Shown: one piece after another, positions 18,795 to 21,942 of the stretch
Position numbering within the stretch: the stretch's first letter is position 1
Layout of the letters: each line of letters starts with the position of its first letter
Virus record (IMG/VR): IMGVR_UViG_3300042307_002019
Location: 1 to 48,430 of that record
DNA: 48,430 nucleotides
Origin: a virus
Reading direction: 5' to 3' (one strand)
Program-made: the position numbers and the translations under genes
Notes under the pieces: generated by a model
The model's database searches: none
Told to the model about the DNA's origin: nothing
The model's input: only the letters and a program-made list of their open reading frames with translations

Positions 18795-18813
18795 GAAAAA
18801 ATAACAGAAAAAG

Positions 18814-18843
18814 GCCCTTTGCATGTTGTAAAGGGCTTTTTTT
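18814..18843 (+). terminator. Rho-independent terminator
   Basis: The 7-bp stem GCCCTTT/AAAGGGC (18814-18820, 18830-18836) has a 9-base loop and is followed by seven T residues. It separates the small gene at 18573 from the modification-like operon. Confidence 0.9.
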
Positions 18844-18861
18844 CGTTTATAGTAAGACCAC

Positions 18862-19209
18862 ATGGAAACAACTACTGTTATTATTACACTACAATACGAG
18901 GCCTTTCATAACTGGCAAGGAGTCAAAGAAGCGCTTCCAGACAACCCAGAAATTTTTTTCCTCTTTGATAGACACAGGCACATTTTTCACGTCAGACTAG
19001 AAAAACATGTAACTCACTGTGATCGCGACATAGAAATAATTCTTTTTAAACGTCAAGTTCAAAATTATCTCGAAACCAAATACGGTCGGCCAGGAGAACT
19101 TGGTTCGAGAAGCTGTGAGATGCTCGCAGAAGAACTTCTAACAAAATTTGATTGTTTGACAGTAGAAGTGCTTGAAGATAACGAAAACGGAGCTAAAGTA
19201 TATAAATGA
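18862..19209 (+). CDS. QueD / 6-pyruvoyl-tetrahydropterin synthase-like T-fold protein
   Basis: The 115-residue product has FHNW (His16) and HRHIFHV (His38, His40, His43), which could form the zinc site of QueD/PTPS T-fold enzymes. SRSCEMLAEELLTKF and VEVLEDNENGAKVY match the family's C-terminal half (normally SENLAxxI...VxVxET). The catalytic Cys position differs from classic QueD, so it may be a divergent subfamily with another substrate. QueD makes 6-carboxy-tetrahydropterin on the 7-deazaguanine route. It is the first gene of a coupled operon with a TGT-like protein. Confidence 0.65.
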   Translation: METTTVIITLQYEAFHNWQGVKEALPDNPEIFFLFDRHRHIFHVRLEKHVTHCDRDIEIILFKRQVQNYLETKYGRPGELGSRSCEMLAEELLTKFDCLTVEVLEDNENGAKVYK

Positions 19210-19631
19210 TTTCATTTGTTTGTGGTCAACTTTGTTCTGGAAAGACTCTTTATTCAAAAGCTCTAGCTCATATTTGTGGCGGTATTTATGTAGAGATTGG
19301 AGATATCGTTCGAACTATTAAAGCAACAGTTGATAGAAAAGCTCTTCAGAATTCTAAAGAATTATTCAACAACATTCTACAACATTTAAAAAATCAAATA
19401 AAAGATAATCCTGACACAGATTTTGTGATTTCTGGTGTTAGACAAAAGGAGATTTTAGAGCATTTTGATGATGTAACGTTTCTGTGGGTTGAATGTCCAG
19501 TAAACGAAAGAAAGCGTCGTTACGAAAATCGAGCTCGAGAAGGAGACTCTCAGACGTTTGAAGAAGCTGAGCAAGGAGACATTGAACTTGGAATACTCGA
19601 AGTGAAGAACTATATTTTTAATCAACTATGA
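19206..19631 (+). CDS. P-loop nucleotide/nucleoside kinase-like protein
   Basis: The 141-residue product begins with a Walker A (GQLCSGKT, residues 7-14). FVISGVRQKEILEHF and VTFLWVECPVNERKRRYENR resemble the LID/NMP-binding arginine region of dephospho-CoA and (d)NMP kinases. It overlaps both neighbours by 4 bases. In a putative base-modification operon it could phosphorylate an altered nucleotide, but the substrate is unknown. Confidence 0.75.
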   Translation: MISFVCGQLCSGKTLYSKALAHICGGIYVEIGDIVRTIKATVDRKALQNSKELFNNILQHLKNQIKDNPDTDFVISGVRQKEILEHFDDVTFLWVECPVNERKRRYENRAREGDSQTFEEAEQGDIELGILEVKNYIFNQL

Positions 19632-20419
19632 AATTCTTTTGCATACCACCAAATAAACATCTTGACTTAATGGATAACGGAGACCGCTATTTTGCTTTAG
19701 CGCACATCTACATGCAAGATGAAAACTACAAACGAACATTTTTGAAGATTCGTAGTAGATCACCAAAGGCTTTTATATGCCTCGATAACGGATGCGCTGA
19801 ACACAGTCTTGTTACTGAGGAAGTTCTTTTGAAAATTGTAGCAGAGCTTAAACCAGATGAAGTAATTGCTCCGGACGTTTTGTTTGACAAAGAGCAAACG
19901 CTCAAAAACTTTAAGTCTTTTATAGCAAAGATGTATGAAAGAGGTTTGTTGTCTCATACTTCAATTTTTGCTTGTCCACAAGGAGCAACAAAGGAAGAGT
20001 GGCTGGAATGCTATTCTCAGATGTTAGTTAATCCATTCGTGAAATGCATAGGACTAAGCAAAATAGCAGTTCCTAAGTGCTGGAATAACGCTGAATGGGA
20101 CACAATGATAGGAGAATCTCGCAATCAATGTGTTGCTGAGCTCATGAAACGTCATTGGCTATCAAAGCCGGTACATCTCCTTGGGATGGGAGAACATACA
20201 GAATTTGACTACTATTTGCAAAATAAAATTCCAAATATTCGTAGCTCTGATAGTTGTTATACTATTCTTGCTGCAATTAATGGAATTAATTTTGAAGAAG
20301 GGAATACTACGAGAATTCCTACAACTAATGCATATTTTGATGCAACTCTTAGTAAAGAACAGCAACTGCTTGCTAAGAAAAATATTGAATACCTAAAACA
20401 AAAATACAAAAACGTATGA
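19628..20419 (+). CDS. tRNA-guanine transglycosylase / DpdA-like protein
   Basis: The 263-residue product has motifs in TGT order. CLDNGCAEHS (Asp53, like the TGT DSG site) is followed by PDEVIAPDVLFD (Asp83), FACPQGATKEEW (Gln118), KCIGLSKIAVP (Gly142), PVHLLGMGEH and IRSSDSCYT (Asp208, at the position of the nucleophile Asp in TGT). The TGT superfamily swaps guanine for 7-deazaguanines in tRNA, and the phage DpdA branch does so in DNA. The protein is shorter than bacterial TGT (about 375 aa) and has no Cys-rich zinc site that I can see, which favours a DpdA-like branch. The substrate is inferred. Confidence 0.68.
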   Translation: MKFFCIPPNKHLDLMDNGDRYFALAHIYMQDENYKRTFLKIRSRSPKAFICLDNGCAEHSLVTEEVLLKIVAELKPDEVIAPDVLFDKEQTLKNFKSFIAKMYERGLLSHTSIFACPQGATKEEWLECYSQMLVNPFVKCIGLSKIAVPKCWNNAEWDTMIGESRNQCVAELMKRHWLSKPVHLLGMGEHTEFDYYLQNKIPNIRSSDSCYTILAAINGINFEEGNTTRIPTTNAYFDATLSKEQQLLAKKNIEYLKQKYKNV

Positions 20420-21087
20420 GTAAACTATTAATTGTAACTTGCACAAAAGCTAAAACTGATAAAGAATTTGAACAAAGACCAATTTTTCAAAGTCTTAAAA
20501 AGCAATACGAAGCCAATTCAAATATTAGTTTTCATATTTTTAAAGACAATCAGCGGGGGTTGTCTGACTGCTATAACGATGTTCTAACGGATCCTGCAAA
20601 CGACGACAAAACTGTTTTATTTGTTCATGATGACGTAGTTCTTGAAGATGTATTCTTGTATGAGAAGCTTATTCATAGTCCGTATTCAATTACCGGTCTT
20701 GCTGGTGCTAAAACATTCAATACGCACTCCCACAAGCTAGCCTGGCACTTATCTGCAGAACGCAAAGATTTTGTTGGAGAAGTTGCTCATTATAAAGATG
20801 GAAATGTGTGGACGACCGTGTTTGGCCCTACAAATAGTAGAGCTCTCGTTTTGGATGGATTGTTTATTGCGTGTAAAGTAAAAGATCTTAAAGAAACAGA
20901 GCTAACATTTGATAAGAACTTTAATTTTCATTTTTACGATATAGCTTTTTGTCTGAGGGCAAACGAAAAGAAAATTACGTGCGGAGTTCTTCCTATTCGC
21001 GTTATTCATTACGGAATCGGAGATTCTATGTTGACTCCACAGTGGGAAGAAGCTAATGTCAAGTTTAAACAAACGTATTGCAAATGA
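20416..21087 (+). CDS. GT2-like glycosyltransferase
   Basis: The 223-residue product has a nucleotide-binding start (KLLIVTCTKAK), a DXD-type motif in FVHDDVVLED (residues 69-78), SITGLAGAK, and the C-terminal FHFYDIAFCLRANE plus IRVIHYGIGDS typical of StrF/GT2-family enzymes. It probably transfers a sugar. In this operon the acceptor might be a modified DNA base (compare T4 glucosylation), although T4 enzymes are GT-B; LPS or a virion protein are alternatives. It is coupled by ATGA overlaps. Confidence 0.78.
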   Translation: MSKLLIVTCTKAKTDKEFEQRPIFQSLKKQYEANSNISFHIFKDNQRGLSDCYNDVLTDPANDDKTVLFVHDDVVLEDVFLYEKLIHSPYSITGLAGAKTFNTHSHKLAWHLSAERKDFVGEVAHYKDGNVWTTVFGPTNSRALVLDGLFIACKVKDLKETELTFDKNFNFHFYDIAFCLRANEKKITCGVLPIRVIHYGIGDSMLTPQWEEANVKFKQTYCK

Positions 21088-21611
21088 TTTTAAGCGAGCA
21101 ACACATACAATCGATTACTAATGAGGATGGCGTATACCAGTGCGGTTTAATTAATCGCAGATTTGCTCATTTGTTTTTTGGAGAAGACACTTCTCCAATT
21201 GGTAATGTAGTTGTATTTGAGTCAAAAACTGAGATTGGGTCTTTGAGCTTAGAAAATGCGTTAGTTGTTTGCGGAGAATTGCCGAATACTAGTATGTTTG
21301 GGGGAGTGTGCTTTCAGAGACTATATGCTACTCAGCTTGGATCATTGTTATCCGTAATTACAGGAAAAGAATGCTTCGTAGACGAGAGCTGCATATTTGC
21401 TGACGGTGTTCAAGCATCTCTTTCTGTAACTAATAAAGTTAAAGACTCTATTGTATTTCACATTATATTTCCTATTGACTCAGCAAGAGAAGAGCTTTGC
21501 AGTCTTGCTTTAAAAGAAGAAGATATGAATACGTTTAAAGAAAACGTAATAGAAGCATTTAAGCATTTAACAAAGAGCATTTTTTTGGAGACTCAGCGTG
21601 ACAATTTTTGA
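21084..21611 (+). CDS. Conserved hypothetical, possibly DUF366-like
   Basis: The ATG at 21084 overlaps the upstream stop and is preferred to the TTG at 21078. The 175-residue product follows a pattern I associate with DUF366: RRFAHLFFG, then VVVFESKTEIG, CFQRLYATQLGSLL, and SLSVTNKVKDSIVFHIIF. DUF366 is seen mainly in archaea and its function is not established. The resemblance is from memory and weak. Confidence 0.6.
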   Translation: MILSEQHIQSITNEDGVYQCGLINRRFAHLFFGEDTSPIGNVVVFESKTEIGSLSLENALVVCGELPNTSMFGGVCFQRLYATQLGSLLSVITGKECFVDESCIFADGVQASLSVTNKVKDSIVFHIIFPIDSAREELCSLALKEEDMNTFKENVIEAFKHLTKSIFLETQRDNF

Positions 21612-21942
21612 TTATCTCAAAGACATAATTGTGACCAAACGAGGAGATTTGCCTCTTGATAACTATGTTCCGTTTTTAGTAAACCGTTGGTTGAGTTTTA
21701 TCAATCCAACAGTTTGCTCTGTTATTAATCAGGTAAATCAAAAAACATTACTAGAAGACAAAGAATTACACTACAAATTGCTAATATCATTGTTTCCTAA
21801 AATGAAATACAGTCCCAAAATTAACTACATCAAAAAAGTCAAAGAGGACGAAAAAGACGAAGATGTCAGAATCAAAATAATTGCAGAAAACTTTGAGATT
21901 TCTACAAGAGAAGTAAAAATGCTTTTAAGCGTCGTAGACTGA
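21598..21942 (+). CDS. 62: DNA polymerase clamp-loader small subunit (gp62-like)
   Basis: The 114-residue product starts at GTG 21598. FDYLKDIIVTKRGDLP, FLVNRWLSFINPTVCSVINQ, LLISLFPKMKYSP and the C-terminal alternation of acidic residues and helices follow the short gp62 family of T4-like cyanophages, whose consensus contains NRxLSxxxDxxxxxNxMN and RxRFxKW. With gp44 it would load the gp45 sliding clamp. gp44 is not in the window, so here the gene ends the modification-like operon. Confidence 0.82.
   Translation: MTIFDYLKDIIVTKRGDLPLDNYVPFLVNRWLSFINPTVCSVINQVNQKTLLEDKELHYKLLISLFPKMKYSPKINYIKKVKEDEKDEDVRIKIIAENFEISTREVKMLLSVVD

Follow-up and report, generated by a model that had tools for sequence, protein, structure and literature searches.

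A QueD paralogue, a kinase and a compact DpdA relative form a predicted 7-deazaguanine module in phages

Six overlapping genes at the locus

The window analysed here is a 48,430-base virus contig (IMG/VR record IMGVR_UViG_3300042307_002019) from an incomplete genome. It carries a run of six overlapping genes, the open reading frames ORF1 to ORF5 followed by the gp62-like ORF6 (Table 1). A first-pass annotation had read this operon as a possible 7-deazaguanine or hypermodification system headed by a QueD-like protein; the 7-deazaguanine part of that reading is well supported by our analysis. ORF1 is a paralogue of QueD and not QueD proper. Taken as a whole explanation, it is very likely that ORF1, ORF2 and ORF3 form a phage module that swaps guanine, most likely in phage DNA, for a 7-deazaguanine derivative.

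The four ATGA junctions described earlier are indeed present, at positions 19206, 19628, 20416 and 21084, and the fifth junction, between ORF5 and ORF6, is a 14-nucleotide overlap (21598-21611) with ORF6 starting at GTG. The order ORF1-ORF2-ORF3-ORF4 was found again in other contigs, and the arrangement is therefore not a product of chance. The kinase, the glycosyltransferase and the gp62 neighbour of the first-pass annotation were recovered through matches to AAA_18, PF13712 and phrog_225, respectively. ORF6 appears to be a neighbour lying outside the modification module. Promoter-like and terminator-like matches occur upstream of ORF1, neither kind being commoner than in shuffled sequences.

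Table 1 Features of the locus. TGT, tRNA-guanine transglycosylase; NMP, nucleoside monophosphate; AF2, AlphaFold model.
Feature	Position	Strand	Length (amino acids)	Assignment	Basis
ORF1	18862..19209	+	115	QueD-fold paralogue	AF2 model, QueD fold match, alignments, phrog_17812
ORF2	19206..19631	+	141	P-loop NMP-kinase-like protein (AAA_18)	Pfam, PDB matches
ORF3	19628..20419	+	263	Predicted compact TGT/DpdA-type guanine transglycosylase without Cys zinc motif	AF2, Foldseek, conserved Asp
ORF4	20416..21087	+	223	GT-A glycosyltransferase (PF13712)	Pfam, gene contexts
ORF5	21084..21611	+	175	Diverged DUF366 protein	Pfam match of relative
ORF6	21598..21942	+	114	gp62-like clamp-loader small subunit	phrog_225, E 4.2e-11
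Terminator-like hairpin	18807..18843	+		Precedes the operon; would end the upstream unit	Weak: 1 site against 2.3 expected in shuffles
Promoter-like hexamer pair	18826..18853	+		Before ORF1	Weak: shuffles give more sites

ORF3 is a compact relative of TGT and DpdA

ORF3 is a compact relative of tRNA-guanine transglycosylase (TGT) and DpdA, and is predicted to carry out guanine exchange. The TGT motifs occur in the order proposed by the first-pass annotation, namely DNG (53-55), APD (81-83), PQG (117-119), HLLGMG (183-188) and SSDS (206-209). The aspartates central to that proposal are kept in the family, Asp53, Asp83 and Asp208 each being found in 87 of 88 distinct homologues, and Arg165, His183 and Gly186 are kept in all 88. 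These aspartates would correspond to the catalytic residues of TGT, as judged by motif order rather than by residue-level superposition.

The AlphaFold model of ORF3 (pLDDT 94.8, 24 sequences) bears out the suggested kinship. Its top Foldseek match is a tRNA-guanine transglycosylase (E 6.8e-7), and in structure comparison it resembles both archaeosine TGT 1iq8 (Z 17.7, root-mean-square deviation, rmsd, 3.0 over 233 residues) and the DNA preQ0 insertase DpdA 7ui4 (Z 17.1, rmsd 3.1 over 231 residues). ORF3 itself has no Pfam or NCBIfam family match, and the Pfam TGT family (PF01702) matched neither the 48,430-base record nor 10 aligned members of the ORF3 family; a PDB sequence search with the family alignment returned weak, unrelated matches only. 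A homologue in Flavobacterium phage immuto is annotated as DpdA, or DNA guanine transglycosylase. The CxCxxC zinc motif of tRNA TGT was found in 0/88 ORF3 homologues and in none of the members of two larger DpdA-like families (see below), which argues against a tRNA TGT and not against a DpdA-like protein.

ORF1 keeps the QueD fold and loses the QueD active site

The first-pass annotation had called ORF1 QueD-like on account of a T-fold histidine pattern, and both fold and pattern stand. The AlphaFold model (pLDDT 95.4, 39 sequences) matches E. coli QueD with Z 12.3 and rmsd 2.7 over 105 residues (Foldseek E 4.9e-5). His16, His38, His40 and Glu105 are invariant in 39/39 sequences, and the zinc histidines and the ring-binding, pterin-anchoring Glu of QueD are thus kept. 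ORF1 is not QueD itself (CPH4 synthase), since Leu34, also invariant in 39/39, occupies the position of the catalytic Cys and the Asp-His pair is missing. The Cys and the Asp-His pair are the catalytic residues of QueD, and Cys27 and His79 are invariant in 16 phage QueD sequences. Having the QueD fold without these residues, ORF1 would therefore carry out a chemistry different from that of QueD. When the ORF1 profile was compared with that of phage QueD, the alignment was confined to 38 C-terminal columns (probability 80), and the kinship had to be judged by fold.

Homologues of ORF1 in cellular genomes (29 loci) lie nearly all on contigs of metagenome-assembled genomes and are thus probably viral. 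The homologue in Aurantimonas sp. VKM B-3413 (L336) comes from an isolate, in which it lies on a 147-kb contig and may belong to a prophage. In phages MA9V-3 (L001:10647-11528, 293 amino acids) and Bakedbeans (L032:7224-8375, 383 amino acids), ORF1 forms the C-terminal part of a longer annotated protein without clear Pfam matches, a fusion or a wrong start call. An extra gene of about 213 amino acids separates ORF1 from ORF2 in L009 and L011 (L011:8871-9555).

Pathway genes and the missing QueC

FolE, QueD and QueE yield 7-carboxy-7-deazaguanine (CDG), which QueC turns into preQ0 (PMC13329287, in part). The FolE, QueC and radical-SAM families, as well as QueD, had no match in the whole 48,430-base record; the first-pass annotation had noted that QueC, QueE and FolE are missing from the window and had advised a search of the rest of the genome. 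In a 217-kb sister contig, FolE, QueD and QueE are present, and QueC was not found. The QueD of this contig is a gene separate from ORF1, and its QueE scored below the cut-offs of the NCBIfam QueE models (best E 7.8e-13) and was missed by the Pfam radical-SAM search. By analogy with this sister phage, the phage of the window would encode FolE, QueD and QueE elsewhere in its genome. No QueC (PF06508, the PP-loop SGGMDS ATP pyrophosphatase) was detected in G000, G002 and G004, contigs that may be incomplete.

QueC was found in 0/77 and 0/49 ORF1 loci, and in 11 of 29 ORF3 loci without ORF1; among representatives at 50% identity the counts were 0/9 with ORF1 and 8/19 without (p 0.029). Of 10 named phage genomes with ORF1, 8 gave no QueC match, and in a further one, X1, the match lies below the cut-off. 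As ORF1 and QueC hardly co-occur, ORF1 probably acts on CDG in the place of QueC. A phage lacking QueC alone had already been suspected of carrying CDG (PMC6884629, in part).

Gene neighbourhoods of ORF1, ORF2 and ORF3

A profile scan of viral contigs with ORF1 gave at least 580 related stretches, which would represent a branch of the pathway that dispenses with QueC and relies on a repurposed QueD. Locus searches used the best 80 loci by similarity, which biases each set towards its query. The 80 ORF1-anchored loci yielded 1,670 neighbour ORFs for clustering, with FolE in 57, a glycosyltransferase family (GT4, 354 amino acids) in 54, QueE in 50 and QueD in 47. The ORF3-anchored set comprises 78 of 80 loci, L009 and L010 having been left out as near-identical to L011, and contains ORF1 in 49, FolE in 48, QueE in 47, QueD in 43, the ORF2-type kinase in 41, a dCTP-deaminase-like gene in 36 and ORF4 in 7. 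The dCTP-deaminase-like gene usually stands just before ORF1, for instance in L137-L161.

One of three TGT/DpdA-like families is present in 74 of the 80 ORF1-anchored loci. Beside the ORF3 type, two larger families appear TGT-like from their motifs (DSGGxQ in 21/29 members of one, DSGA or DSGL in 20/30 of the other). These accompany GT4 in 30/30 and 22/25 loci, compared with 0/19 for ORF3-type loci. GT4 is the next gene after ORF1 in 27 loci and the second in 17; its assignment comes from 16 of 23 aligned members that match Glycos_transf_1, together with glycosyltransferase matches in the PDB. A sugar-epimerase family (PF01370, E 5e-54) occurs in 8 ORF1 loci, all 8 of which have GT4.

ORF2 matches AAA_18 in Pfam (E 5e-11, 43.5 bits against a cut-off of 29.4), its P-loop GxxCSGK is invariant in 9 aligned family sequences, and its resemblance to AdkA-like (1.2e-5) and UMP/CMP (5e-4) kinases in the PDB suggests a nucleotide substrate. 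Of 77 loci (ORF3 being uncalled in L170), 49 have a kinase no more than four genes away from the ORF3 homologue, as opposed to 0/29 and 0/25 for the two larger TGT-like families; in the ORF1-anchored set, 7 of 21 ORF3-type genes have the kinase nearby. Thinning to 50% identity left GT4 at 8/8 versus 0/4 (p 0.002) and the kinase at 0/8 versus 3/4 (p 0.018), and at this threshold the kinase accompanied 8 of 28 ORF3 representatives; at 35% the tests lose power.

Isolated phages carry these genes as well, namely the PA5oct group, ACP17, Phosso, X1, phiST and MA9V-3, and the question is thereby directly open to mass spectrometry. In phi13:1/phiST and MA9V-3, ORF1-ORF2-ORF3 adjoins QueD, QueE and FolE. 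The GT4 query matched 19 of 50,697 records of isolated phages, 15 of them among the 27 ORF1 records; the remaining 4 are weak matches at 25% identity. MazG, considered as an obligatory partner, was rejected, being detected in 4 of 17 records and not in the sister phage. In the siphophage-like loci L172-L200, a gene of about 800 amino acids follows ORF3, with a uracil-DNA-glycosylase-like start and possibly a fused polymerase, and MazG-like genes often precede its position in the locus; these names were read from the sequence.

ORF4 and its two alternative modules

ORF4 matches PF13712 at 28.3 bits (cut-off 27) and two relatives do so at 31.0 and 32.7 bits. By this assignment it is a GT-A glycosyltransferase, and it may transfer a sugar to a DNA base. 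A profile scan with ORF4 gave 79 loci, some on near-duplicate contigs (e.g., L214, L215 and L246). Within four genes upstream of ORF4 there were ORF3 in 18 loci, QueC with Gat in 37, Gat only in 8, none of these in 14, and a contig edge in 2; QueC and ORF3 occurred together in 0/79. The QueC of these loci is certain (PF06508, E 2e-65, 1.8e-55 and 5.6e-58), and for Gat, which has an MCGI start, two of the three cases match GATase_6 weakly.

The unit QueC-Gat-ORF4 precedes ORF5/gp62 in 20 loci and a DnaB-like gp41 helicase in 17, and this presence in two downstream contexts indicates that the association is not only an effect of the gp62 neighbourhood. T4-like phages have ORF4-ORF5-gp62 as an independent unit. 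ORF1-ORF2-ORF3 sits where sister phages have QueC-Gat, and by this swap two alternative modules tie ORF4 to 7-deazaguanine. Three of four sister genomes with QueC-Gat have an ORF3-family gene in their QueD regions (L315:12075-12890, L313:5990-6847 and L314:6080-6991), between genes read from sequence as polymerase-like and ThyX-like; G007 has none in the regions fetched. With an ORF3-family gene also present in QueC-Gat phages, it is ORF1-ORF2 that appears to replace QueC-Gat, at the step after CDG. At 50% identity, a 7-deazaguanine gene was in the locus for 8 of 16 ORF4 representatives.

No relatives of ORF4, ORF5 or one ORF4 relative were found in isolated phages. Two candidates were rejected: the genes after ORF3 in MA9V-3 are alike in size to ORF4 and ORF5 and have no detectable homology to them, and c18, a GT-A-like neighbour at some ORF3 loci, has no detectable relation to ORF4. 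A run of glycosyltransferase-like genes, named from their sequence starts, is flanked by gp47-like and gp46-like genes and lies within a few kb of QueD/QueE (L021:16420-19711 and L022:83-1470 in sister G002; L026:145-5247 in G004); it might also serve DNA glycosylation.

The DUF366-like character suggested for ORF5 holds for its family more clearly than for the window copy, which scores 13.8 bits against a cut-off of 29.9; the relative L238:6695-7282 matches at 67.8 bits (E 1.1e-18). Among 14 control genomes, DUF366 was detected in two, each that of a methanogen, and no published text on it was found in the open-licence library searched. In phages, DUF366 adjoins QueC-Gat or ORF1-ORF3 and may be connected with archaeosine chemistry.

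A proposed pathway and its alternatives

In the pathway that we propose, FolE, QueD and QueE would make CDG, on which ORF1 would act instead of QueC, as its fold and its avoidance of QueC suggest. ORF3 would then exchange guanine for the product base of ORF1, and ORF2 would phosphorylate an intermediate, probably a modified deoxynucleotide. Least certain is the last step, in which ORF4 may glycosylate the base that ORF3 has inserted. A broader version, in which glycosylation of 7-deazaguanine in DNA is common to a large group of phages, with ORF1 providing the base or its handle, a DpdA-type enzyme installing it and GT4 or ORF4 adding a sugar sometimes supplied via a phage-encoded NAD-dependent epimerase, comes close to an even chance in our estimate. 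A glycosylated base is plausible in the phage of the window, and glycosylation has stronger support in the GT4 branch than in that of the window.

Several observations weigh against these proposals. The window lacks FolE, QueD and QueE, its genome being incomplete. The exclusion between ORF1 and QueC reaches p=0.029 at 50% identity and is not significant at 35%, where the tests lose power, and Vibrio phage D479 holds ORF1 together with a partial QueC-family match above the cut-off. ORF4-ORF5-gp62 occurs without QueC, Gat or ORF3 in 5 of 79 loci, among them G005 (210 kb), in which QueD, ORF1 and QueC were not found.

The last of these observations also speaks for a simpler explanation, in which ORF1 decarboxylates CDG, ORF3 inserts the product as a plain 7-deazaguanine, and ORF4-ORF5 belong to a T4-like replication neighbourhood with another substrate. 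It is compatible with the ORF1 loci lacking QueC, with the presence of ORF1-ORF2-ORF3 in phi13:1 and MA9V-3 without a detectable ORF4 homologue, and with the CDG decarboxylase DpdL reportedly described by Cui et al. 2023, but it leaves aside both the two downstream contexts in which ORF4 follows 7-deazaguanine genes and the frequency of GT4 in ORF1 loci. We regard it as a tentative but genuine possibility, somewhat short of an even chance.

It is unlikely that modification takes place at the level of the mononucleotide, with ORF3 swapping the base of dGMP, the deoxynucleoside monophosphate (dNMP) kinase-like ORF2 phosphorylating the product, and a polymerase incorporating it during replication. 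The kinase near ORF3 homologues and not near the larger DpdA-like families would fit, as would the dNMP-kinase neighbours in D479 and Ahp1, the MazG-like and polymerase-like genes beside ORF3 in many siphophage-like loci, and the small size of ORF3 and its missing zinc motif. However, both compared DpdA-like families likewise lack that motif, MazG is infrequent, the kinase association shrinks upon thinning, and the published DpdA works on DNA (PMC6884629, in part). A tRNA target, with ORF3 as a phage TGT and ORF4 glycosylating a queuosine-like base, would accord with TGT as the closest fold and with the galactosyl- and mannosyl-queuosine of animal tRNA (PMC12518689), but is very improbable given the missing zinc motif, the frequent position beside replication genes and the relative annotated as a DNA guanine transglycosylase.

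Comparison with known systems

7-Deazaguanine bases shield phage DNA from restriction (PMC6884629, in part). Should the proposed pathway with its sugar hold, the pairing with a glycosyltransferase would unite two hypermodification strategies held separate, 7-deazapurines and sugar-coated bases; no report of a glycosylated 7-deazaguanine in DNA was found in the open-licence library searched. Mannosyl- and galactosyl-queuosine are also glycosylated 7-deazaguanines, but they belong to animal tRNA and not to phage DNA. The alpha- and beta-glucosyltransferases of T4, which place a sugar on a modified base after replication, offer an analogy for ORF4, although ORF4 is a GT-A protein of PF13712 and its acceptor would be 7-deazaguanine.

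ORF1 shares with QueD the T-fold, the histidine pattern and the pterin-anchoring Glu, but differs in its active site, and the sister phage holds a genuine QueD in addition. The QueC-Gat pair of the preQ0/archaeosine branch (phage 9g; PMC6884629, in part) resembles ORF1-ORF2 in its site beside ORF4 and in serving the step after CDG, yet the proteins are unrelated, and none of the examined locus sets showed QueC together with ORF1. Like DpdA and DpdA2 (PMC6884629, in part), ORF3 has the TIM-barrel fold of TGT, the Asp residues and FolE, QueD and QueE as partners; unlike DpdA 7ui4 (413 amino acids), it has only about 265 amino acids, falls outside Pfam TGT and is accompanied by a kinase and a QueD paralogue instead of QueC.

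Cui et al. 2023 reportedly described DpdA3, DpdA4, DpdL (a CDG decarboxylase), DpdM and DpdN, and ORF3 and ORF1 may overlap with DpdA3 and DpdL. DpdL would use CDG as its substrate where phages lack QueC, as we propose for ORF1.

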